Program-made: the position numbers and the translations under genes | Shown: in pieces, positions 2,500 through 21,824 of the stretch | Layout: every line of letters begins with the position of its first letter | How positions within the stretch are numbered: position 1 is the stretch's first letter | The notes under the pieces: generated by a model | Told to the model about the DNA's origin: nothing | The model's database searches: none | Seen by the model: the letters and a program-made list of their open reading frames with translations, nothing else | Assembly (NCBI GenBank): GCA_024684535.1 | Contig: JAIKWQ010000083.1 | Coordinates: 1-37,090 of the forward strand | DNA: 37,090 nt | Reading direction: 5' to 3' | From: Eubacterium sp. | Lineage (GTDB): Bacteria; Bacillota; Clostridia; Lachnospirales; Lachnospiraceae

Positions 2500-4428
2500 T
2501 CATACCGCTGATTTGTCAAACCAGTACACAAGCTCTTCTATGGGAATCGGCTTCGAATACTTGAATCCCTGAAGGTAGTTTGCGTTCATTTTTATACATT
2601 TTTCTTCATCTTCATCCGTCTCAATTCCCTCGTAGAGCACTGCATAATTCATAGCCGAGAACATACGTGCAAGGTAAGTGATCATTTTTTCCGATTTCTG
2701 ATCCTCGCCACTGGCTATCACGAGTGAACGGTCAAATTTGATCGTATCAAACGGAAGCTCGAGTATTCTCTCAAAGTTTGAGTACCCAGTTCCGAAATCA
2801 TCCAGATAAAACTTAATTCCGTTGTCTCTGAGCAAATCAATAGTGTTTTTCACTATGTTGAAGTCTTTTTCATTCTGACTCTCTGTAATCTCAATGGCAA
2901 CCTTTTCATGCGGAATTCCGACATCATCTATAACCTTGTTTATATCACTTATGAAGTTCGGATCACGCACTTCCTTTACGGCAAAATTCACCGATATTCT
3001 CTGCACTACATAACCTTCTTCAAGCATTCTTTTTATCTGAACACAGGTTTTGTGAAGGATGATCAGACTCAATCTGTGTATGAAGCCGTACTCCTCAGCA
3101 AGGGGGATGAATTTATACGGCAAAACCCTTCCAATCTTCGGTAGTGAAAGCCTCATCAGCGCTTCTGCTGTATCGTATTTTTTTGTAGTTATATTCAAAA
3201 CCGGCTGTGTATACACTTCTACTCTCGGATCATCCAGAAAATCGCTTTTTGCGATATCCTTCAACTGCAGGAGAATATAATTCATCTCCCTGAAATTCTC
3301 CAAATCTTTTTCGTCAATGAAATGAATGCTGTTTTCATGCATCCCCTCCTCAACGAACCTCATCAGTCTCACATAGTCGTGATTCTCAGTCACATCGGAA
3401 ACCGTCTCCAGACACACTATTTTGCAATCATACGAAACCGAAGAATAATGAGCGTCGAAATCTGCTTCAATACTCTGAATAGCCTTCTCATAATTCGGAT
3501 TTTTCTTCGGGTTAAGAGACAGCGCAATTCGTCCGTTTGAAAGTTGGAACAACGTCGCCCCTTTGAAACTGGCATATGAAAAATCCCGAAGCATCTCTAT
3601 CATCTCTCTGGGATAGTTTTTGCTCTCGCTCTCAAACTCATGCATAAACAGGCTGATGATAACTCTTTTTTCATTTTTATGGTTTTCCAAAAATGTAACG
3701 AGATCTTCAAAAGCGCCCACGCCCACAGCGCCGAGCTCTATATCGTACGGATTTGAATGGATAAGATAAAACAGTGTGATAGCAGGGAACAAAAATGCTG
3801 CTGATGTAAACGAAGTCTGACCGTGCATTCCCTGTATGGAAATCAGCAAAAAAGAAACGACATAAGTTCCGATTATTCCAAACAGAATCTGTTTTGCAAG
3901 CCGAGCTCTGTATCTGATCAGCAGAAACAGTATGATTCCGACGAAAAATACATAGCCGACGGAAAAAATATTGAAACCTTCGTATACCTTTCCGCTGTCT
4001 TCAATTCTGAAACCGAATCCTAATACCGTACCCAAAACATCGTAGACTGTTCCGCCGATAAATCCCGCAGCAGCAATCACTACATATCTTTTGTCCGTTT
4101 TCGGATTCAGATTGAGCGGCTCCATGACGTAAATGATATACAAAAACAGGTTTGAGAAAAGGAAAAAATGATACAGTGCTCTGAGCACATAGGTATAGAT
4201 ATTTACCGAATCATCAATATTATTGAGGAGAATATGGTATCCCATATCGGTTACTGCAGCAAGTATGAGTGACAAAATCATCAACTGGAAAATCCTGAAG
4301 TTCTTCGTTCTGACAATATAAGCCGCCTGCATAAGCACAACTATAACCAGACACAAGCCCATAACAAGAACATCGCCTACAGGCGTATAGTTGTGATAAT
4401 AAGTTATTGCTGACTCTACGTTATCCAT
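2500..4428 (-). CDS. Membrane-bound cyclic-di-GMP phosphodiesterase (EAL), with degenerate GGDEF-like middle domain
   Basis: The protein is 642 aa from the ATG at 4428, chosen because AGGAGGGG lies directly before it; a longer frame to 4473 would overlap the upstream gene. About seven hydrophobic segments fill residues 15-225. A region at about 245-385 looks like a GGDEF fold that has lost its signature (LSNGRIALSL in its place). The EAL domain (about 400-640) keeps its key residues: EAL at 422-424, ITES, DDFGTGYSNF (543-552), DTIKFD (561-566), the Glu of YEGIE (E600) and LQGF. It should therefore hydrolyse c-di-GMP to pGpG at the membrane, with the degenerate domain possibly binding GTP. It is the last gene of the yaaR-holB-ricT-trmN6 run, 41 bases after trmN6. 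The ligand of the membrane sensor is unknown. Confidence 0.88.
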   Translation of the reverse strand: MDNVESAITYYHNYTPVGDVLVMGLCLVIVVLMQAAYIVRTKNFRIFQLMILSLILAAVTDMGYHILLNNIDDSVNIYTYVLRALYHFFLFSNLFLYIIYVMEPLNLNPKTDKRYVVIAAAGFIGGTVYDVLGTVLGFGFRIEDSGKVYEGFNIFSVGYVFFVGIILFLLIRYRARLAKQILFGIIGTYVVSFLLISIQGMHGQTSFTSAAFLFPAITLFYLIHSNPYDIELGAVGVGAFEDLVTFLENHKNEKRVIISLFMHEFESESKNYPREMIEMLRDFSYASFKGATLFQLSNGRIALSLNPKKNPNYEKAIQSIEADFDAHYSSVSYDCKIVCLETVSDVTENHDYVRLMRFVEEGMHENSIHFIDEKDLENFREMNYILLQLKDIAKSDFLDDPRVEVYTQPVLNITTKKYDTAEALMRLSLPKIGRVLPYKFIPLAEEYGFIHRLSLIILHKTCVQIKRMLEEGYVVQRISVNFAVKEVRDPNFISDINKVIDDVGIPHEKVAIEITESQNEKDFNIVKNTIDLLRDNGIKFYLDDFGTGYSNFERILELPFDTIKFDRSLVIASGEDQKSEKMITYLARMFSAMNYAVLYEGIETDEDEEKCIKMNANYLQGFKYSKPIPIEELVYWFDKSAV

Positions 4429-4469
4429 AATTCCCCTCCTGCTGTCTAACCGGTTGTCAAAAAGCGGAT

Positions 4470-5207
4470 TCACCCCTCATACATGACTCGAACCTCTTCA
4501 GTATACTCCCCTTTTTCATCATACACTATCAATGGTCTTTCAACCGTCATCCCGGGTTTTCCATCATATATCCCGCAGATATATACCAGATTCGGCTCAC
4601 TGTTCGCGTTCGGACATACAAGCCTCATCCTTTTTGGTTCCAAACGGTATTTATGCATTTTTTCTATGATTTCCGCAAGTCTGAACGGTCTGTGTACCAA
4701 ATAAAACCGTTTTCCCGGGCGGATCAGTTTTGATGCTGTTTCTATCACATCCTCAAGTGAACAGTAAACCTCATGTCTTGCTATCGCTTTTTGATCGGTC
4801 GGATTTATCAATCCGCCTTCTTCACTTAAGTAGGGCGGATTGCAGGTAATCACATCTGCGCACCTGGCCCCGTATATCTGCACTGCATTTTTCACATCAC
4901 CACAGGTTATGTCGACTCTGTCTTCGAGATGATTGTAGGCAACACTTCTTTTTGCCAAATCAGCAACATCTTCCTGTATTTCAAGTCCTTTGAAAAATTT
5001 TCCTTCCGTTCTGGCCTGCATAAGTATCGGTATAACTCCGTTACCTGTACACAAATCTATGCATTCGTCATTTTCTCTGACTTCAGCAAATGCGCTGAGC
5101 AACACCGCGTCTATCCCGAAACAAAACCAGTCAGGGCGCTGAATCAGCATCAAACCATCTCTTTGAAGATCGTCAAGTCTTTCGCCCTCTCTCAAAATAT
5201 CAGTCAT
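4470..5207 (-). CDS. trmN6: tRNA1(Val) adenine-37 N6-methyltransferase-like protein (TrmN6/YabB)
   Basis: This 245-aa Rossmann methyltransferase has a SAM-binding motif DLCTGNGVIP (51-60) and the NPPY catalytic motif (123-126) of N6-adenine methyltransferases. Its length and position match YabB of Bacillus, which follows yaaT in the same order. The start at 5207 overlaps the ricT stop as ATGACTGA, suggesting translational coupling; an in-frame upstream start at 5297 would overlap ricT by 98 bases and looks less likely. The family predicts methylation of A37 in tRNA, but the exact tRNA target here is inferred. Confidence 0.85.
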   Translation of the reverse strand: MTDILREGERLDDLQRDGLMLIQRPDWFCFGIDAVLLSAFAEVRENDECIDLCTGNGVIPILMQARTEGKFFKGLEIQEDVADLAKRSVAYNHLEDRVDITCGDVKNAVQIYGARCADVITCNPPYLSEEGGLINPTDQKAIARHEVYCSLEDVIETASKLIRPGKRFYLVHRPFRLAEIIEKMHKYRLEPKRMRLVCPNANSEPNLVYICGIYDGKPGMTVERPLIVYDEKGEYTEEVRVMYEG

Positions 5208-10075: not shown

Positions 10076-11473
10076 TCAAGCCAGTCCACCCAAATCTCTC
10101 ACGTGCTTAATTCCCACCAGTTTCACACCGTCAAGTTTCAAATTGCCTCCTTTTATCACAGCCTCTTTGTTGCTCTCAGGCAAAACCACCGTTTTATAGC
10201 CTGTTTTCACAGCTTCAGCAACTCTTCTTTCTGCCTGTGAAACCGCTCGAACCTCGCCCACAAGACCTACCTCGCCGAAAAATATGGTATCTGACGCAAA
10301 TGCTTTTCCGGTGTGACTTGAGATCAATGCTGCTACCAACGCAAGATCAAGCGCAGGTTCAGAAACCTTCATCCCTCCGGCGACATTTACATAAGCATCA
10401 CAATCACCGAGCGGGAGGCCTATACGTTTTTCAAGCACGGCCATAAGCAGGTTCACTCGATTATGATCTGTACCAACCGCCGTTCTTCTGGGAACCGGAA
10501 AACTCGTTCTGCACACAAGCGCCTGGACCTCTATCAGAAATCCCCTCGTGCCCTCCATAGCACAAACCACTACGGATCCCGCTTCGTCTTCAAGCCTCCC
10601 CTGCATCATATACGCAGAAGGATCGGGAACCTCAACAAGTCCACAGTTTTGCATCTCGAAAACTCCGACTTCGTTGGTCGAGCCGAAACGATTTTTCACC
10701 CCACGCAGCAGACGGTACATCGCTGTTTTGTCACCCTCGAAATACAAAACCACATCCACCATATGCTCAAGCATTCTCGGTCCTGCCACATTTCCTTCTT
10801 TTGTCACGTGACCTACTATAAAAATGGTTATATTCCTGCTCTTTGCCAGCTGAAGGAGCGTACCTGTAACTTCCTTTACCTGACTTATGGAGCCCGGAGC
10901 AGCATCAACGCTTTCCTCGTAGACCGTCTGTATGGAATCAACTACCAACACTACAGGCTGAACTTCCTCAACCGCCCTGATAATCTCTCCCATCGCAGTC
11001 TCAGAAAAAAGCAGCATTTCATCGCCGAAATCTCCGATTCTGTCCGCGCGCATTTTTATCTGACGCTCCGATTCCTCACCGGATACGTACAATGTCCTGA
11101 TTCCTTTTTTCGAAAGAAGTCTGACTGTCTGCAAAAGAAGTGTAGATTTACCGATTCCCGGATCTCCTCCGACCAGAACAAGCGACCCCGGAACCAAGCC
11201 GCCGCCCAAAACCCTGTCAAACTCATCAAGTCCTACCGGGATTCTCTCATCATCAGATGTTTTTACATCAGATATATTGAGCGGTTTTTTCGCCTGCTGA
11301 ACGCCTGCCGCCTTCAGTCTTGAGTACGTAACCGCCTTTGATTTAAGCTTTGCCGCCTGTCCTGCCGGCGCCTCAACAAGTGTATTCCACGCTTTGCATC
11401 CGGGACACTGCCCCTGCCATTTTGTAACTTCAGTCCCACATTCCCTGCAAAAAAACAGCTGTTTTTCCTTCAT
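10076..11473 (-). CDS. radA: DNA repair protein RadA (Sms)
   Basis: This full-length 465-aa RadA has an N-terminal zinc finger (Cys9, Cys12, Cys23, Cys26), a RecA-like ATPase core with Walker A GDPGIGKST (103-111), the RadA-specific KNRFG motif (about 261-265), and a C-terminal Lon-protease-like domain. RadA is a hexameric branch-migration helicase that helps RecA-mediated recombination and repair. Its ATG overlaps the stop of the HK-DegV gene as ATGA, and AGGTGA is within that gene, so translation is coupled. It is the last gene of the signalling block that starts at the promoter 18255-18283. Confidence 0.95.
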   Translation of the reverse strand: MKEKQLFFCRECGTEVTKWQGQCPGCKAWNTLVEAPAGQAAKLKSKAVTYSRLKAAGVQQAKKPLNISDVKTSDDERIPVGLDEFDRVLGGGLVPGSLVLVGGDPGIGKSTLLLQTVRLLSKKGIRTLYVSGEESERQIKMRADRIGDFGDEMLLFSETAMGEIIRAVEEVQPVVLVVDSIQTVYEESVDAAPGSISQVKEVTGTLLQLAKSRNITIFIVGHVTKEGNVAGPRMLEHMVDVVLYFEGDKTAMYRLLRGVKNRFGSTNEVGVFEMQNCGLVEVPDPSAYMMQGRLEDEAGSVVVCAMEGTRGFLIEVQALVCRTSFPVPRRTAVGTDHNRVNLLMAVLEKRIGLPLGDCDAYVNVAGGMKVSEPALDLALVAALISSHTGKAFASDTIFFGEVGLVGEVRAVSQAERRVAEAVKTGYKTVVLPESNKEAVIKGGNLKLDGVKLVGIKHVRDLGGLA

Positions 11474-14169
11474 CGGCCATCACCTATAATATCTTTCTCT
11501 ACAAATACAAGGCTGAAAGAATTCAAACCGCAGTTAATAGCAACAGCAGTTGATGCTTCCTGAAAAATAACCCGATCGAATCCACCCCTGTCATCAATTC
11601 TATCCTGTATCCACTGCATATCTTCCGGATTCAATCCGACGTGATTAACTATCAAAAGTTTCCTGTCAATCGACGACAAATCTCTGAGCGCGGACTTGAT
11701 ATATTTTTTCCATGCTCTTCTCTTGCTTCCGATATAAAGCTTGTGAATCCTCATTTTATTTTTTCTTAATTCCACAACAGGCCTGAGGCTTAAGGATTTG
11801 ACGACATTATATGTACTCTTTCTGATTTGGCCCGCTACAGCCAGCTGCTCAAGCGAACCGACCAAATACTGAGATTTAATCTTCTTTTTCAGATTATCAA
11901 GTTCCTGAATGATTTTTTCAGGCCCGTCACCGGCACTCGCCATCTCACATGCTTTGATAACCAAAAGTCCTGCTGCACCGCCAAAGTGTTCACTGTCATA
12001 TACAGTTACGTTCTCAAACGTCTTTGACGCCTCTACCGCTGCAGGATAACTGGACTTTTTGACTCCGGATGCCAGCGAAATATGAATGATATTTCTCGTA
12101 TCACGAAGATTATCCGCGAAAAATGACTCAAACCTCTCCGGCTCTATAGGTCTTACCGTTGTGGGTTTATTCAATTCAAACATGTAATCAAGAATTCCAT
12201 ATGAGTTTATATCTATCATATCGCGGAAAAGACCGTCTTTTGTGTCGATTCTTACAGGAATGATAGGAATATTGTATTTTCTTTCAAATTCTTTCGGGAT
12301 CGATGATACACTATCTGTTGTAATAGTAACCACTGATCGCATCCTGTGCTCATCTCTCCATAGTTTACTCTTATCTTTTATATCCTCTTTCTCATCTGCA
12401 ATAGTGACAATATTTCTCGGGAGCTGCTTCAACAGTTCTTCCTCAAGCGCTCTTCCGCTAACAGGCTTAACCACATATCCGTCAAAGCCCTCTCTCGCAT
12501 ACAGAGCCGCATTGTCACCTCCGGCATTTGCAGTCAGAACAACCACTTTTGAATCTTTGCACATTCCACCTGTCTGAGTCCTGATTCTGTGGAAGCACTC
12601 GATTCCGTCCATTCCCGGCATCTTGTGGTCCATAAATATCACATGAAACTCATTTTCAAGCGTTTTTTCAAGCGCTTCTTCTCCGTTCGATACCGTAGTC
12701 ACCTGGACTCTGGTTTCCCTGAGAAGTTTTGCTACAACCATAAGGTTTGCCGGTGTATCATCTACCACCAACACCTTCGCTTCAGGCGCTGTGAAGCTTG
12801 ACCTGTAACGGGTCTGTGAAACGCTGACATGTTTTTCATCAAGATCTATCTCTCCAACCTTCTCTTCACCTGATTTTTTCTGAGGTATCTCGATAATGAA
12901 AGTTGAACCCTTCGTGTAAACACTGTTTACAGTTATTTTTCCTCCCATCATATCCACAAACTGCTTAACTATGGACAGTCCGAGACCGGTACCCTCTATC
13001 ATATTATTCTTATCTTCGTCTATTCGCTTAAACGCATCAAAAAGCACCGGGATACTCTCTTTATGTATTCCTATTCCGGTATCCGTTACGGTAAATATAG
13101 TATTTACCGTATCTGCATCCAGCTCCTCACAATGAACGGTAAGTGTGACAGACCCCTGTTTGGTATACTTAACAGCGTTGTTCAGGACGTTGATAAGAAT
13201 CTGCTCCATTCTCATCTGATCTCCTATCATTTCTCTGGGAAGCTCAGGTGATATATCCACTATAAACTTCAGATTCTTTTCTTTTGCACGAACAAGAATC
13301 ATCCTTGCAACATCCGCAACCATATCCTTTGTAAAATAAGGACTGTTCACAAGCTCCATCTGCCCGGACTGGAATTTGGACATATCCAGAATATCATTGA
13401 TCAGATGCAAAAGCATCTTGCCCGCAGCCTGTATGTTTTCAGCATCTTCATTGATTTCATCCGAAGCATTTTCACGAAGAATCATCTCATTCAGACCGAT
13501 TATAGTATTAATCGGTGTTCTGATTTCATGGCTCATGCTTGAGAAAAATCTGTTTTGCGCCTTGTTCAGTTCATCGATTTCATTTTTCTGATTTTTGGCC
13601 GTTTCATTCTCTTTGCGGTACAAAACAGTCTGAAGAGTGATCATCAGAATCAATATGAAGCAAACCAGGAAAAATGAAGCGAGCGAATCCTGAAATGCTG
13701 TCTCCTCCGTATGCGGAAGCGTAAGCGCAGGATAGTTTGCGTAGAGATAGTATATTACACCAACCACAACAGCCTCGCAAGAAAGGAAAATAATTCTTGG
13801 CTTTCCTCTCAAACACAAACTGATATACATGGCATCAAATACATTCCAGATAGCAGCGCCTCCATGTATCGCGCCGCTGGTGAAAAAATTGACCGGCAAA
13901 AATATAAAAACAAGAATAAATGCGACAACATACGAAACGGCAATGATATGATTCGTCTTGAACCCTATGATTGTGAGGGCGAGAAAAACAACAAAGGAAA
14001 TGCCGCAAACCACAACCGACTCGAGATTTTCTCCGATAATCGGTCCACAGATTCCGGCCAGAAAAATGCCGAAAAGAGCGATTACCGCAAGGAACATAAA
14101 CAATCTTTCCCTGATATCGATATCGCTGTTTCCCAGATATCTTCTGATTTTTCTGTATGTTTCCTTCAT
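11470..14169 (-). CDS. Hybrid histidine kinase with receiver and C-terminal DegV domain
   Basis: The 899-aa protein begins with about five or six membrane segments (residues 23-184). HisKA follows (phospho-His214 in SHEIRTP), then HATPase_c (N-box 327-336, DTGIGI 363-368, GTGLGL 393-398) and a receiver domain (Asp470/471, phospho-Asp514, Thr546, Lys568). Residues about 612-892 form a DegV domain: the TDS motif at 618-620, KPTTVRP, VYDSEHFGGAAGLLV, then SLEQLAVAGQI. DegV/FakB proteins bind a fatty acid and present it to a fatty-acid kinase. Here some usual ligand residues differ: by eye, the His of HxGPG is Asn879 and the SGT serine is Lys704. There is no HPt domain; the upstream kinase supplies one. 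AGAGGAG precedes the start. The domain calls are firm; the signal and the ligand are inferred. Confidence 0.88.
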   Translation of the reverse strand: MKETYRKIRRYLGNSDIDIRERLFMFLAVIALFGIFLAGICGPIIGENLESVVVCGISFVVFLALTIIGFKTNHIIAVSYVVAFILVFIFLPVNFFTSGAIHGGAAIWNVFDAMYISLCLRGKPRIIFLSCEAVVVGVIYYLYANYPALTLPHTEETAFQDSLASFFLVCFILILMITLQTVLYRKENETAKNQKNEIDELNKAQNRFFSSMSHEIRTPINTIIGLNEMILRENASDEINEDAENIQAAGKMLLHLINDILDMSKFQSGQMELVNSPYFTKDMVADVARMILVRAKEKNLKFIVDISPELPREMIGDQMRMEQILINVLNNAVKYTKQGSVTLTVHCEELDADTVNTIFTVTDTGIGIHKESIPVLFDAFKRIDEDKNNMIEGTGLGLSIVKQFVDMMGGKITVNSVYTKGSTFIIEIPQKKSGEEKVGEIDLDEKHVSVSQTRYRSSFTAPEAKVLVVDDTPANLMVVAKLLRETRVQVTTVSNGEEALEKTLENEFHVIFMDHKMPGMDGIECFHRIRTQTGGMCKDSKVVVLTANAGGDNAALYAREGFDGYVVKPVSGRALEEELLKQLPRNIVTIADEKEDIKDKSKLWRDEHRMRSVVTITTDSVSSIPKEFERKYNIPIIPVRIDTKDGLFRDMIDINSYGILDYMFELNKPTTVRPIEPERFESFFADNLRDTRNIIHISLASGVKKSSYPAAVEASKTFENVTVYDSEHFGGAAGLLVIKACEMASAGDGPEKIIQELDNLKKKIKSQYLVGSLEQLAVAGQIRKSTYNVVKSLSLRPVVELRKNKMRIHKLYIGSKRRAWKKYIKSALRDLSSIDRKLLIVNHVGLNPEDMQWIQDRIDDRGGFDRVIFQEASTAVAINCGLNSFSLVFVEKDIIGDGR

Positions 14170-14184: not shown

Positions 14185-16734
14185 TTACTTAAGCACGCTT
14201 CTTATCGCTCCGGTAACAAAAGCAAACTTCTCCATGACAGAATCATGTTTTCTCTTTATCTCGTCAATCCTACCTTCTTTTGCATCACCCTCAAGTTCGA
14301 GCGCAAGATCAGAAAGCTCATTTGCGCCTATCATTCTTGATGTGCCTTTAAGCGCATGGATTTTTATTTCATACGCTGCTAAATCTTCGTCTTTCAGCGC
14401 ATTTTCAAGAATTTCCGTCGACTTGGACGCATCCTCCATATAATCACCCAGAATCGCTTTGTAGAGTTCCTCGTCACCCTGACAATACTCAAGTCCCTGA
14501 TCAATATCGATTCCGTAGCGCAAAAGCCTGGTAAATGAATTAGCCTGTTTTATTGAGTTGGTGTTTTCAGTCTCCTCCGGATCATTTTTCCTGATATCGG
14601 CAAGTATGCTGTCGACAGACTTCCCGGAATTCACATCTGTTTTTTCATATTTTTTCCATTCAATATTCTTGTCTTCTTTCGGTAACTCATAAGCTATCAT
14701 TGTCGGTGACAGAAGGTCTCTCAACACTCTCTCGAGCACAAACGCCTCTATCGGCTTTCCGATAAACGCATCAAATCCCTCTTTCATAAACATCTCACGC
14801 GCCGTACTGATAGTGTTCGCAGTAAGCGCAACTATCGGGGTATCGCCGTTTCTGCCCGAGAGATCCTCACGGATTTTTTTCATAGCTTCGACACCGTCCA
14901 TAACAGGCATCATGTGGTCCATAAATACTATGTCATATCTCTCTCTGCGACACATATCTATGGCTGTATGACCGGAATCAGCGGTCTGTGTCTCGATCCC
15001 GTATCTGGAGAGAATTCCTTTCGCCACAACAAGGTTAAGCGGCTCATCATCAACAACCAGCACCTTGACACCCCAGCAGTACATACGCCTTCCGGCCGCC
15101 ATCTGGTCTCCGCTTGAATTTATTGCCGATATGATCGGGAAGCAGTAGAGTGGTTTCTCGAAGAACCTGACGTGCGAATTCGGTGGAAGCTTGTATCCCC
15201 TGTCCGCGGTTATGTATACAGGAATCTTTTTCGCAACTTCTTCCATGTACTCTATATCTGTTTCATACTCTTTCATTCCTATGAAGATATGAGATATATA
15301 TGTAGTATCTATAACCTTTTTCAAGTTCTCCATACTGTCGACACCATGAAGCGCAACACCCATTCCCTTCACGACATTGGTAATCATAGAATTGTAGAAT
15401 TCGCGCACTTCCGGAACAGGATACTTTCCAAAGTAGAAAAATGCCCCGAGACTGACTTTCTCACGATTCTTGACTGACATACAGCTTGAGGCATCAACAA
15501 CTTTTTGCGGTAAACAAACGTGAACATTTGTACCTTTGCCGGGTTCTGATTCCATAGTTAAAAATCCGTTCAACGCAAGCACGAAACCTTTCACGATAAA
15601 CAGACCGAGTCCGAGTCCCCCATGCTCTCTGTTTCTGCCGGAATTGGTCTGATAGAAACCGTAGAATATATCTCGCTTTTCCTTATCATTGAGTCCCATT
15701 CCGGTATCATTTACATCTATGCACAAGTTCACTCCGTACTTGGTTTCCTGAGACGTAATCCGCACATACACGCCACCTTCATCAGTGTACTTGAGACCGT
15801 TGATTATCAGATGGCGGATAATCCTTTTCAATTTGTAAACATCTGAATTCATAACAGCCGGAATCGACGGATCCACATCCAGAACAAGCTCAAGTCTCGG
15901 TGTGATAAATGGCCTGAGCTCAGCCACCACATCGCTTAAGAGCGAAGAAATCATATAGTTTTCGGGAGTCAGAGCCATGACATCTCTGTCAAGTTCGGTG
16001 AAGTTTAGGATATCGCTCATCTGATCTGCAACTCTTCGTCCCGCATCCTGGACAGCCAGCAGATCCTGGCGGTTTTTCTCATTTGTTTCCCTATCAAGAC
16101 AAACCTCCGTCAATCCGATAACAGCATTAACCGGGGTGCGTATCTCGTGAGAGGCATTTGCCAGAAAGTCATCAAGGCGTCTGGTCACACCGTAAAGATC
16201 TTCAATCTCAGAAGATGTTTCTTTGACTATTCTATCCCATTTTCTGATGATAGCGCAAGAGGTTCCACCTATAACAATAATCATTACCGAATGCAGAATG
16301 ACGCGAGCTACGGTTTCACTATTTATCGCACCATTTTCGATAATATACATAGTTATGGAATACCCTGCGGTAACAAAATATGTGGTCATAGCGACGTAAA
16401 TAACGCCTCTCATCGCCGTCACTGCCGAAACCGCTATGATAACTGCCATAATTACAGCCAGATCAACATAACTTGACTTGTGAATTCCGTAGAAGAAAAA
16501 TTCCAACATAGTAACTGCCGTACATATCCAGATTCTTCCCTTCGGTGGGATTTTCCCCTGAATATGCAAGCCCCATGAAACAGCGACTCCCAACACAATA
16601 GGCACCAAAACCCAGAGCTCCCACGACTGCGTGAACGCAGCAACAATCGTGATAGCTGAGAAAATTGTGTATCCGATAAGAATTATCAGATGTGCGTGTT
16701 GAAAGAATCTGTTTTCTTTTTTGGTATTTTTCAT
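14185..16734 (-). CDS. Hybrid histidine kinase with degenerate receiver, receiver and HPt domains
   Basis: This 849-aa protein has a membrane region of about five or six segments (residues 13-163). HisKA follows (phospho-His196 in SHEIRTP), then HATPase_c (Asn312, DTGMGL 343-348, GLGLG 373-377). A region at about 425-540 looks like a receiver fold without its phospho-Asp (HIFIGMKEYE where the Asp strand should be, yet FFEKP near the end). A full receiver comes next (Asp562/563, phospho-Asp606, Thr638, Lys660), and a C-terminal HPt domain (His793 in IHALKGTSRMIGA). All steps of a His-Asp-His relay are therefore in one chain. No output regulator is encoded nearby, so the HPt may pass phosphate to the receiver of the next gene or to an unlinked regulator. 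The gene lies 18 bases after the GGDEF gene and 15 before the HK-DegV gene. Confidence 0.9.
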   Translation of the reverse strand: MKNTKKENRFFQHAHLIILIGYTIFSAITIVAAFTQSWELWVLVPIVLGVAVSWGLHIQGKIPPKGRIWICTAVTMLEFFFYGIHKSSYVDLAVIMAVIIAVSAVTAMRGVIYVAMTTYFVTAGYSITMYIIENGAINSETVARVILHSVMIIVIGGTSCAIIRKWDRIVKETSSEIEDLYGVTRRLDDFLANASHEIRTPVNAVIGLTEVCLDRETNEKNRQDLLAVQDAGRRVADQMSDILNFTELDRDVMALTPENYMISSLLSDVVAELRPFITPRLELVLDVDPSIPAVMNSDVYKLKRIIRHLIINGLKYTDEGGVYVRITSQETKYGVNLCIDVNDTGMGLNDKEKRDIFYGFYQTNSGRNREHGGLGLGLFIVKGFVLALNGFLTMESEPGKGTNVHVCLPQKVVDASSCMSVKNREKVSLGAFFYFGKYPVPEVREFYNSMITNVVKGMGVALHGVDSMENLKKVIDTTYISHIFIGMKEYETDIEYMEEVAKKIPVYITADRGYKLPPNSHVRFFEKPLYCFPIISAINSSGDQMAAGRRMYCWGVKVLVVDDEPLNLVVAKGILSRYGIETQTADSGHTAIDMCRRERYDIVFMDHMMPVMDGVEAMKKIREDLSGRNGDTPIVALTANTISTAREMFMKEGFDAFIGKPIEAFVLERVLRDLLSPTMIAYELPKEDKNIEWKKYEKTDVNSGKSVDSILADIRKNDPEETENTNSIKQANSFTRLLRYGIDIDQGLEYCQGDEELYKAILGDYMEDASKSTEILENALKDEDLAAYEIKIHALKGTSRMIGANELSDLALELEGDAKEGRIDEIKRKHDSVMEKFAFVTGAIRSVLK

Positions 16735-16752
16735 ATGTCTCCTCTGAAAAAA

Positions 16753-18219
16753 TCACTGACCGTTTTTTTGTCTGAATTCTTCTTTCATTTTTTTCTTGTT
16801 TTCATACATCTTTGCATCTGCTCTCTTGAATACATCCTCAACTGTAGCATCATTATTTTTGTCATATAGAGCAAATCCCAACGCCGCAGACACCTTTTCC
16901 CATGGTTCATAAACCTGACTTTCCTGTCTGTGCTCAATTGATTCGGCAAACTTGCGAGATATAAGATTTATATTTCTGTAATCAGTGTTCTCAAGAATCA
17001 CCGCAAACTCATCTCCGCCCACCCTGTAAACAGGCGAATGCTTGAAATGGTTGCATATGATAGAAGCAATAGTGTTAATAGAAACATCACCCTTGTCGTG
17101 ACCATAGGTATCATTGATACGCTTCAGATCATTTAAATCTATAATAACAATTCCAAATTGCGCAAGATTTTTGGTGATACTATCCGAAAGCCTGATAGTA
17201 TCCCGCTCATACGCACGTTTGTTGCGCAATCCTGTCTGCGGATCTTTCGTAGCCATCTGAGTCATTTCCTGAGCTTCTTCTCTGGATTGCATCAACTGTT
17301 CTCTGGTCTTCACAAGGTTTGTTATGTATCTGTTCAAATCCTTCTCCATCTGTTTCATGGAGTCTGATAGTTCTCTGATCTCATCTCTTGATGACACAAC
17401 AACATCCGAGAACCTGGTGTTCTCAGCTTTATTTTCAGCATTGCAATACTCTTCAGCAGCGCTTGAAAGTCTTTTGATAGGTTTAACGATAAATCTGTTT
17501 ACAAGAAGGAATCCGATGATGCATATGACAACAGTCAGTGCCAGGAATGAGATAAGCGTCAGGTAAAAATAACTCTTCTGCTCACCTCTGACATCATTCA
17601 TCGATATGTCTAAACACGCATAACATATAACTTCGTCATTTTCTCCATACACAGGAACACCGGCCGTCAAAAGCCAGCCATACTCTTCTGTGTCCGTAAT
17701 ATACGGAGGATAGCCTCTTGCAGGATTTGTGAGAGACTCCTTGTTGACATCATATACCGGATCAAAACATCCCGGCGGACACGCATCTTCCACTGCAGCA
17801 TCCACCAGATAAATGGCATTTTTAGTCGGTACATCTATATAAACCAAATACATACAATCAACGTCTGTTTCATTCTGAACAGGCGTCAGGGTATCCAAGA
17901 TCTGCGTAAACTCAGGCATTTTTTTGACTTCGTCAAATCTTTCTATATACTCGTCAAATTCGGGACTACCCCACTCCTCGCTTCCTACCTTTTCATCTGT
18001 AGTACTGTATATGAGTTTGATCTTATCACGTACAGCTTTCGCAGCTACAGGATCCACCATATGTGATATGGCAGTTGCCAACTGTCTGGCATTATCCTTG
18101 TAGTTATTATCTATGGTATCATTAATTATACGGCTGCTCACAAAAAGACCCATGCTGCTCATAAGCAGCGCGAAAACAACGATCATTATGATTGCTTTTG
18201 TGCGTAGCGAAAATCTCAT
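16753..18219 (-). CDS. Membrane diguanylate cyclase with extracytoplasmic sensor and HAMP domain
   Basis: The 488-aa protein has a membrane segment (8-28), an extracytoplasmic sensor domain (about 30-215, Cache-like in layout), a second membrane segment (218-242), HAMP (243-295), a short coiled coil and a GGDEF domain (about 325-480) with intact VGGDEF (400-405) and IIDLNDLKRIND. It should make c-di-GMP from two GTP. The RxxD product-inhibition site expected shortly before GGDEF is absent, so feedback by that route is unlikely. The sensor has three cysteines close to one another (122, 147, 151). This is the first gene of the block, and GGAGG precedes its start. Confidence 0.9.
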   Translation of the reverse strand: MRFSLRTKAIIMIVVFALLMSSMGLFVSSRIINDTIDNNYKDNARQLATAISHMVDPVAAKAVRDKIKLIYSTTDEKVGSEEWGSPEFDEYIERFDEVKKMPEFTQILDTLTPVQNETDVDCMYLVYIDVPTKNAIYLVDAAVEDACPPGCFDPVYDVNKESLTNPARGYPPYITDTEEYGWLLTAGVPVYGENDEVICYACLDISMNDVRGEQKSYFYLTLISFLALTVVICIIGFLLVNRFIVKPIKRLSSAAEEYCNAENKAENTRFSDVVVSSRDEIRELSDSMKQMEKDLNRYITNLVKTREQLMQSREEAQEMTQMATKDPQTGLRNKRAYERDTIRLSDSITKNLAQFGIVIIDLNDLKRINDTYGHDKGDVSINTIASIICNHFKHSPVYRVGGDEFAVILENTDYRNINLISRKFAESIEHRQESQVYEPWEKVSAALGFALYDKNNDATVEDVFKRADAKMYENKKKMKEEFRQKNGQ

Positions 18220-20402: not shown

Positions 20403-21824
20403 TCATTGCGTAACAACCGATCTCGGCTGACCGTCAAGCCACGCTCTGATACTTTCTGCCACGTCACTTACGAGCCTTTTCCTGGCTTCAAGCGGAGCCC
20501 ACGCCATATGCGGTGTGAGTACAAGTTTTTCCTTTCCGTCATCTCCACTATGATTTTCCATATATTTCATAAGCGGACTGTCTGCGGGAAGCGGTTCTTT
20601 TTCATAGACATCCAATGCCGCACCTGCAATAAGTCCGTCTTCAATCGCCCTTACCAAATCCCCTTCCACAACGATCGGACCTCTACCGAGATTCAAAAAT
20701 ACACCGCCGGGCTTACATTTTTTAAATGCTTTATAATTCATAAGCCCACGCGTTTTTTCGTTCAAAGGCGCGTGACAGGAAATCACATCGCTTGTTGCCA
20801 AAAGTCTCTCGAAATCCAACTGTTTGTACGGCACATCATATGTGGAACCACTTGCGGAATAATAAACTACATCCATACCGAAAGCTGTTGCGACTTCCGC
20901 CACCCGACGCCCTATGGCACCGAGTCCTATGATTCCGAATCTTTTTCCGTTTAATTCGTGAAACTCTCTCCCCATATGCGTAAATGATTCCTGCGAAGAG
21001 TATTCGCCTGAATTTACATAGTTACTGTAATATCCAATCTTTTCCCAGAGGGACAAAAGCAATGCAAACGTATGCTGAACCACCGCTTCCGTCGAATACC
21101 CTCTTGAATTGGTAACTGTTATTCCTCGCGAAGTACAGTAATCTATATCGATATTGTTGTATCCCGTTGCAGCCTCGCAAATAAGTTTGATATTCTGCGC
21201 ATCTTTCATCACGCTCTCATCGATGATGCATTTGTTCGGCACAACTATAGTAGCATTTTTAATCCTCTCCGCAACTTTATCCTGCGGAGTATGGTCATAT
21301 GTTTTCAAATCTCCGAATTCGGAAAGCTCTTCAAAACTTACTCCGGCTGCATCCGCTTCCAAAACGACTATGGACATTTTTCCGACGGATGACGTATGTT
21401 TTTTCAGCTCACGACACAGATACTCATATCTGAGTTTTTTCTCTTCCTTGCTGAAATGGACCTCCCTGAACTGTTCAGGATTGTCCTCATACGACAGGAC
21501 TTCGTCTCCAAACTGTTCACTGGTCAGATCAAACACGTGACCGTCGACACAGTTGTAGCAATGATAATTCCCACCGGGTCTTAAGACTCCGTAAACTTCA
21601 CCGCCAAATATATCCTGTACCAGAAAAGCTGTCACTGAGCACTGGCCCAGCGTGATGTTTTCCTCACTCCACTCGGATCTGAGTCTCGGTGCGCATGAAT
21701 ACTCACACCAGATATTCAAAAGCACATCATATAGATCCTGCGGGGTAGCTATACCGGGATATTCATCGGAAACAGGAGGAACTGTCGCATCCTCCCATCC
21801 ATAAAACTTGTAAGTCTTTGACAT
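20403..21824 (-). CDS. Fusion of a YunG-like domain and a D-2-hydroxyacid dehydrogenase
   Basis: Residues 1-147 resemble YunG-family proteins (LGQCSVTAFLVQDIFGGE, then an HCYN...DGHVFDLTSEQF region). Residues about 150-470 form an NAD-dependent D-isomer-specific 2-hydroxyacid dehydrogenase: GLGAIG (300-305), Arg381 in LGRGPIV, Glu410 in YEKEP and His439 in LTPHMAW, the usual catalytic Arg-Glu-His set. A normal dehydrogenase of this family is about 320 aa, which fits the C-terminal part alone. The N-terminal Cys62, His88 and Asp99 could be a papain- or transglutaminase-like site, but that is speculation. The start follows a terminator by about 33 bases, with AAAGGA as the ribosome site. The substrate is unknown. 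Confidence 0.82.
   Translation of the reverse strand: MSKTYKFYGWEDATVPPVSDEYPGIATPQDLYDVLLNIWCEYSCAPRLRSEWSEENITLGQCSVTAFLVQDIFGGEVYGVLRPGGNYHCYNCVDGHVFDLTSEQFGDEVLSYEDNPEQFREVHFSKEEKKLRYEYLCRELKKHTSSVGKMSIVVLEADAAGVSFEELSEFGDLKTYDHTPQDKVAERIKNATIVVPNKCIIDESVMKDAQNIKLICEAATGYNNIDIDYCTSRGITVTNSRGYSTEAVVQHTFALLLSLWEKIGYYSNYVNSGEYSSQESFTHMGREFHELNGKRFGIIGLGAIGRRVAEVATAFGMDVVYYSASGSTYDVPYKQLDFERLLATSDVISCHAPLNEKTRGLMNYKAFKKCKPGGVFLNLGRGPIVVEGDLVRAIEDGLIAGAALDVYEKEPLPADSPLMKYMENHSGDDGKEKLVLTPHMAWAPLEARKRLVSDVAESIRAWLDGQPRSVVTQ

Follow-up and report, generated by a model that had tools for sequence, protein, structure and literature searches.

The stretch of DNA analyzed here (hereafter the window; 37,090 nucleotides of contig JAIKWQ010000083.1 from the Eubacterium sp. 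assembly GCA_024684535.1, family Lachnospiraceae) encodes a membrane hybrid histidine kinase that ends in a DegV domain; together with a second kinase, this chain forms a conserved module of which it is one half. DegV/FakB proteins are lipid carriers for phospholipid synthesis; in these gut and rumen bacteria the lipid-supply fold seems to have been turned into a part of a signaling relay. The architecture, partner, neighboring genes, fold and residue changes described below are computational observations; on the reading that we hold to be somewhat probable, the fused DegV would be a regulatory domain that binds a ligand in the cytosol, within a two-kinase phosphorelay that often has an output in cyclic di-GMP (c-di-GMP). 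If true, this would give the DegV fold a new role and would add a new type of intracellular sensor to those of gut and rumen Firmicutes, in which, to our knowledge, the signals setting c-di-GMP are poorly known.

A DegV domain fused to a hybrid histidine kinase

The gene and its domains are as follows (aa, amino acids; REC, receiver domain; ORF, open reading frame; pLDDT, predicted local distance difference test):

11470..14169, minus strand: hybrid histidine kinase with C-terminal DegV, 899 aa (transmembrane region, HisKA, HATPase_c, REC, DegV); ORF, Pfam, NCBIfam
13600..14169, minus strand: N-terminal membrane region, residues 1-190, with five hydrophobic segments; Kyte-Doolittle scan only
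13363..13560, minus strand: HisKA, residues 204-269; Pfam, residue conservation
12877..13224, minus strand: HATPase_c, residues 316-431; Pfam, residue conservation
12436..12774, minus strand: receiver domain, residues 466-578; Pfam, residue conservation
11494..12330, minus strand: DegV domain, residues 614-892, entire profile length; Pfam, model pLDDT 94.6, FakB-type fold

An earlier note on this DNA had claimed a DegV domain (residues 612-892, positions 11494-12336) fused to a hybrid histidine kinase. This claim is borne out by a single 899-aa chain that has no internal stops in its ORF and in which all domains are matched by Pfam (HisKA 65 bits, HATPase_c 99 bits, Response_reg 82 bits), the claimed extent being correct to two codons. 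The DegV match is strong and of full length, both for Pfam PF02645 (profile positions 2-280 of 280, 128.7 bits vs. a cut-off of 27 bits, E 3.6e-37) and for NCBIfam TIGR00762 (137.9 bits, above the cut-off of 99.7 bits). The hallmarks of a hybrid histidine kinase (the His, the N- and G-boxes and the receiver Asp/Lys) are all present: His214 of HisKA, Asn327, Asp363, Gly365 and Gly367 of HATPase_c, and the phospho-acceptor Asp514 and Lys568 of the receiver are invariant among 62 aligned full-length relatives. The five hydrophobic segments fall within residues 17-183.

A search of GTDB genomes with a profile of the three fused DegV domains of the source genome, from which the best 80 of 210 confirmed relatives were kept, supplied the architecture survey that the earlier note had proposed. 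DegV stands at the C-terminal end of a longer frame in all 80 kept loci (a contig end cuts the frame in 11/80), and all four Pfam families were matched by 48/48 full-length members scanned (DegV at E 0.001). In the source genome (191 contigs, 1.9 Mb), DegV is matched four times, namely in three frames of 892-914 aa, the other two of which are kinase-receiver-DegV chains too, and in one separate gene, located on a contig end and carrying an ordinary GGR motif. A frameshift or chimeric assembly, which the earlier note had named as a possible undoing of the fusion, was ruled out by the recurrence of the same chain in independent assemblies (80/80 kept loci plus the three own-genome copies).

By their record titles, the kept loci belong mostly to Lachnospiraceae, with Oscillospiraceae, Ruminococcus, other Clostridia and one Treponema in addition. 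Most are metagenome assemblies, and cultured species include Schaedlerella arabinosiphila, Acetatifactor muris and Sporofaciens musculi; with such cultured carriers in the set, a relay role of DegV is open to experimental testing. The only locus with a complete module titled outside Clostridia (L143) is a contig of a Treponema-titled metagenome-assembled genome and may reflect contamination or transfer. In broader samples, for which the best five candidates per genome were scored so that the figures are lower bounds, long DegV frames were found at the order level in at least the own family and one further family (f17), and at the phylum level DegV frames of at least 700 aa occurred, among the matches listed, only in own-family genomes. 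Some short DegV frames (395-624 aa) resembled other architectures, and the four inspected (L214, L215, L216 and L219) proved to be contig-end cuts. Separately, ordinary-type DegV matches were seen within frames of 605-612 aa (G032:C196, G021:C32 and G028:C72).

As to the transcriptional context, a promoter/terminator scan of the operon gave promoter-like sites not in excess of those in shuffled sequences, and Rfam and tRNA scans gave no matches. The DegV kinase gene and radA/sms (window 10076-11473, minus strand, 589 bits) share an ATGA overlap, the start of the latter lying within the end of the former, so that translation of the two may be coupled in the source genome.

A partner kinase and a shared HPt domain

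The DegV kinase gene is preceded, at a distance of 15 nucleotides (nt), by the gene of a second hybrid kinase, whose N-terminus has four hydrophobic segments in a Kyte-Doolittle scan:

14185..16734, minus strand: partner hybrid kinase, 849 aa (HisKA, HATPase_c, putative pseudo-receiver, REC, HPt); Pfam, module conservation
15067..15501, minus strand: partner putative pseudo-receiver ("mid") domain, residues 412-556; receiver-like by model only
14734..15063, minus strand: partner receiver domain, residues 558-667; Pfam, Asp606 conservation
14281..14454, minus strand: partner HPt domain, residues 761-818, phospho-His793; Pfam, His conservation

The partner was counted over 102 DegV-bearing frames from 102 loci, leaving out two duplicates (L195 of L087, L197 of L068) and a contig-cut DegV-only frame (L145), and treating a gene as evaluable when its 5' end is intact and at least 300 nt are available upstream. 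A partner kinase frame stands immediately upstream in 84/88 evaluable DegV genes, at an open-frame distance of -89 to +66 nt. In three of the other four loci (L107, L139 and L198), tblastn locates the partner domains in the upstream DNA, with their frames broken or displaced, and the fourth (L122) is a contig with only 578 nt available. The same association is seen at the level of gene content: of 39 genomes of the genus, 26 have both the DegV clade and the partner mid domain, 12 have neither, and one has a weak mid match alone (Fisher p 3e-9, the kinship of genomes not being corrected for); this mid-only genome (G018) has an HK-REC-HPt chain (HK, histidine kinase) with no DegV nearby. Across the class, the mid domain was found in 9/391 genomes, three of them from another family, and all 8 such genomes besides the source genome have a long-frame DegV. 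Conversely, 10/51 DegV matches have no mid domain within 5 kb on the same contig, contig-end cases being among the 10.

The partner keeps its kinase and receiver residues in nearly all cases (His 85/86, Asn 86/86, receiver Asp606 in 82/86 with 4 gaps), and at the HPt His793 position His is found in 73/86 partners, with 12 gaps and one Arg. There is one HPt domain per pair, located on the partner in 74/84 and on the DegV chain, after DegV, in 9/84; in these nine the HPt carries a HALKS motif (9/9) and the partner has no HPt. In the remaining pair (L127) no HPt was seen, the partner frame being broken.

The mid domain had no Pfam match, and its comparison with the REC profile was not significant (hhalign probability 0.9%). 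Its model (pLDDT 85.4) has alternating strands and helices and compares with receiver domains at VIA Z up to 12.2, and the top Foldseek row is a lysine decarboxylase (E 4.4e-4). The domain looks receiver-like in this model, and we call it a pseudo-receiver with reservation.

Neighboring response regulators and a link to c-di-GMP genes

The next gene upstream in the window, 18 nt from the partner gene and likely in the same operon with it, is:

16753..18219, minus strand: membrane HAMP-GGDEF protein, probable diguanylate cyclase, 488 aa; Pfam (HAMP 21.5 bits, below the cut-off of 25)

Neighbors, defined as same-strand genes no more than 150 nt away, were counted for the 73 modules flanked on each side by 1500 nt or more, with examples confirmed by Pfam. 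In 58/73 modules such a neighbor encodes a receiver, GGDEF or HD-GYP; GGDEF or HD-GYP is encoded next to 34/73, in 31 of them together with a receiver, and many of the remaining neighbors are stand-alone receivers of about 120-165 aa. In comparison, free-standing DegV genes have such a neighbor in 0/15 cases within 150 nt and 1/15 within 1500 nt, and the background frequency of receiver, GGDEF or HD-GYP domains is 10/308 ORFs. When the neighbor ORFs were clustered, only the partner (86 loci) and a regulator with a receiver (70 loci) recurred widely, the next cluster reaching 9 loci; no recurrent lipid gene was found among these clustered ORFs. All three modules of the source genome have a c-di-GMP gene immediately upstream (HAMP-GGDEF in the window, REC-HD-GYP at L035, a contig-cut GGDEF at L036). 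An HPt-bearing hybrid kinase beside a REC-HD-GYP gene is found in many modules, but not in that of the window.

Several further observations concern this neighborhood. The window also encodes an EAL-domain protein (2500-4473, minus strand, 657 aa), and the source genome has 19 GGDEF matches. At L185 (2596-3381, minus strand), L187, L188, L190 and L194, the neighbors are proteins of ~260 aa in which an N-terminal half of ~140 aa without assignment precedes a C-terminal receiver, the reverse of the usual order, and ~685-aa proteins are encoded directly downstream of HPt-bearing DegV kinases at L183 (4583-6631, minus strand) and L184 (8626-10686, plus strand). Near the DegV module at L035, on contig C188 of the source genome, a 1059-aa chain (14432-17608, minus strand) combines ferredoxin clusters, an iron-only hydrogenase large-subunit domain and HisKA-HATPase_c-REC, and toward its C-terminus there is a HALKS motif like that of an HPt; judging by these domains, it is possibly a redox or hydrogen sensor kinase. 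Elsewhere in the window (20403-21824, minus strand), a YunG domain is fused N-terminally to a D-2-hydroxyacid dehydrogenase in one chain.

Variable placement of DegV within the module

The usual position of DegV is directly after the receiver of the hybrid kinase, and in the nine HPt-bearing DegV chains it lies between receiver and HPt. Other layouts occur. At L175, a separate 288-aa DegV is flanked by an HK-mid-REC-HPt gene on one side and a REC-GGDEF gene on the other (this locus is counted among the 74 pairs with HPt on the partner, its DegV being taken as its own frame), and at L236, HK-REC and DegV occupy separate, overlapping frames that follow the partner and an HD-GYP gene. At L217, an HK-REC gene is followed by DegV-HPt and then REC-GGDEF, with overlapping genes; this DegV-HPt protein is a single case, as a search of 397 family genomes (best 4 candidates per genome) for a stand-alone chain of such length, matched over its whole length, found only its source genome. 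At L234, DegV is N-terminal on a dCache-HK-REC-HPt chain, whose neighbors are an HK-mid-REC partner and a REC-REC-HD-GYP gene. Such layouts do not fit easily with DegV as a simple output of the preceding receiver, and the varied placement of DegV and HPt amounts to a natural experiment on re-wiring the domains of one relay.

The fused DegV domains retain the FakB fold and form a separate clade

The structure prediction proposed in the earlier note gave a confidently modeled DegV domain for the window (AlphaFold2, mean pLDDT 94.6, predicted TM-score 0.91) with a FakB-type fold. Its top Foldseek match is FakB2 (4x9x, E 1.3e-23, TM 0.82/0.90), and it aligns with 29 DegV/FakB entries at Z 28-33 over 256-280 residues at 2.2-2.8 Å.

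In FakB, Arg205 is the key FakA-binding residue and is completely conserved, and in FakB1, Thr62 and Ser95 bind the carboxylate, His270 belongs to its hydrogen-bond network and Arg173 is catalytic (PMC8892158, partial text). These positions were compared, in FakB1 numbering, between 100 fused domains (two long rows of the 102 were left out) and 36 free-standing DegVs. At position 205, Arg is found in 0/100 fused domains, while the free-standing ones have 19 Arg and 16 Lys of 36; at position 270, the fused domains have Asn in 95/100 and His in one, vs. His in 34/36; at position 173, they have 36 Arg, 51 Gln and 8 Lys of 100, vs. Arg in 35/36. Ser or Thr is present at position 62 in 83/100 fused and 36/36 free-standing domains, and at position 95 in 58/100 fused domains, vs. 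Ser in 36/36. Further changes in the fused domains are Tyr or His at position 28 (87/100), Cys at 271 (88) and Leu at 121 (86), and a changed yet conserved motif has NCGPG as its commonest form (54/100). Overall, the fused clade appears, from these alignments, to have dropped the contacts to the fatty acid kinase and gained conserved residues of its own; since three defining residues (Arg205, His270 and Arg173) fail, we do not claim FakB membership.

In a quick tree of 83 rows, from which the nine HPt-bearing chains were left out, the fused DegVs form one clade (SH-aLRT 100), apart from FakB1, FakB2 and ordinary free-standing DegVs. One free-standing DegV (L063, the same gene as in L175) falls inside this clade and is possibly a secondary split from the fused form.

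Mechanism and rival explanations

In the mechanism that we infer, comprising a direction of phosphate flow, formation of a complex, ligand binding and a regulatory role for DegV, the two co-encoded membrane hybrid kinases, with intact kinase and receiver residues, would share the one HPt domain on either chain and pass phosphate to a neighboring response regulator, most recognizably REC-GGDEF or REC-HD-GYP and elsewhere a stand-alone receiver. With the former neighbors as recipients, the system would often set c-di-GMP, in a manner akin to RpfC/RpfG although made of different parts. DegV, which keeps the FakB fold but lacks the residues through which FakB contacts the fatty acid kinase, would bind a ligand, probably an acyl or other lipid-like one, and tune the kinases or phosphotransfer to HPt. 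A more specific version of this mechanism, offered tentatively and judged to fall somewhat short of probable, takes the DegV-fold receptor as a movable sensory subunit of a Clostridia phosphorelay built on an obligate HPt-sharing kinase pair, which would couple an intracellular lipid-like ligand to c-di-GMP by gating the kinases or HPt phosphotransfer, in convergence with RpfC/RpfG from FakB-type parts.

Several observations weigh against a ligand-binding DegV that acts through c-di-GMP. Within 150 nt of 15/73 modules there is neither a receiver gene nor one for GGDEF or HD-GYP, and the neighboring GGDEF protein of the window lacks a receiver. The FakB pocket is remodeled in the fused domains (positions 28, 270 and 271), which leaves room for a ligand other than a fatty acid. 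The window domain itself keeps 0/6 of the FakB1 residues compared (it has Val62, where the alignment is ambiguous by one residue, Lys95, Ala171, Gln173, Ile205 and Asn270), has NCGLN where NCGPG is usual and sits with one relative on a long branch (length 1.09). To judge from these residues, the window copy is divergent and may bind a different ligand or none, and it is ill suited to stand for the clade in a lipid test. Of the three roles for DegV raised in the earlier note, ligand sensing fares best, with the caveat that the pocket of the very copy on which it was proposed looks altered.

Another possibility is that DegV serves without any ligand as a structural or protein-protein interaction module joining the two kinases and HPt, which we consider unlikely but worth keeping in view. 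Such a role has a precedent in FakA_C, the FakB-binding part of FakA, which is related to FakB and lacks the fatty-acid tunnel (PMC9136124, partial text), and it would agree with the changed pocket residues (more of which are lost in the window copy) and with the movement of DegV between module chains. Speaking for a ligand instead are the full FakB length kept by the fused domains (256-280 residues aligned), so that stretches absent from FakA_C are probably present, as well as the frequent Ser/Thr at the carboxylate-binding position 62 and the prevalence of NCGPG within the conserved changed motif. Still less probable, in our estimate, is DegV as an output of the receiver, whose phosphorylation would open or close it to load, release or hand over lipid. 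The common form, with DegV directly after the receiver in the usual place of an output domain, and the retained FakB fold fit this idea; it is weakened by the loci in which DegV is separate (L175 and L236), attached to HPt without a receiver (L217) or N-terminal beyond a Cache domain (L234), and by the response regulators that adjoin most modules and offer other outputs. The phosphorylation-gated fatty-acid carrier that the earlier note had also considered is disfavored, as neither the FakA-docking Arg205 (0/100) nor the catalytic Arg173 (36/100) is consistently kept.

It is very improbable that the fused DegV is a fatty-acid carrier of the ordinary kind, which the kinase anchors at the membrane and which still feeds FakA and phospholipid synthesis. 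The source genome does encode a 580-aa Dak2-domain protein, probably FakA, and FakB works at the membrane (PMC8892158, partial text), but Arg205 is kept in none of the fused domains, and the same genome holds a separate DegV gene with an ordinary GGR motif. A FakA-coupled carrier was rejected as a candidate because of the loss of Arg205 and the replacement of His270 by Asn (95/100).

The preferred reading, a ligand-binding DegV within a two-kinase relay, joins components that are each known, namely phosphorelays and DegV proteins; what appears to be new is that they are combined, that DegV and HPt change their places and that the module is linked to genes of c-di-GMP turnover. The kinase-DegV architecture may already be on record in domain databases. 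The earlier note had presented the fusion as an undescribed signaling design, and this stands insofar as neither a DegV-kinase fusion nor the two-kinase module was found described in the open-licence literature searched, including the accessible portions of PMC9136124, PMC7773995, PMC8892158, PMC3146951 and PMC12688256; the design is, nevertheless, not that of a single protein, as the fusion makes up half of a two-kinase module.

Comparison with known systems

Like FakB1 and FakB2 of S. aureus, the fused DegVs have the same fold at full length and mostly a Ser or Thr at the Thr62 position; unlike FakB, which is a soluble partner of FakA, they reside in a kinase module and have lost Arg205 throughout. 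The HK-REC-HPt layout is that of BarA-type phosphorelays, and the arrangement of two kinase-type proteins around one HPt resembles that of RcsC/RcsD. Unlike in these types, both module kinases keep the His, Asn and Gly boxes, one chain carries DegV and the HPt domain changes chain.

RpfC has an HPt domain, and RpfG is a REC-HD-GYP c-di-GMP phosphodiesterase; similarly, the hybrid kinase pair with HPt described here adjoins REC-HD-GYP or REC-GGDEF genes. In Xanthomonas, the membrane hybrid kinase RpfC senses the diffusible signal factor (DSF) fatty acid via a 22-residue N-terminal sensor region (PMC5391125, partial text), whereas here the candidate ligand domain is DegV and there are two kinases; homology between the two systems is not claimed. 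Finally, in the Caulobacter hybrid kinase ShkA, a pseudo-receiver within the chain binds c-di-GMP (PMC7010744, partial text), and the partner of the DegV kinase likewise carries a putative pseudo-receiver inside its kinase chain, c-di-GMP binding being a feature of ShkA.

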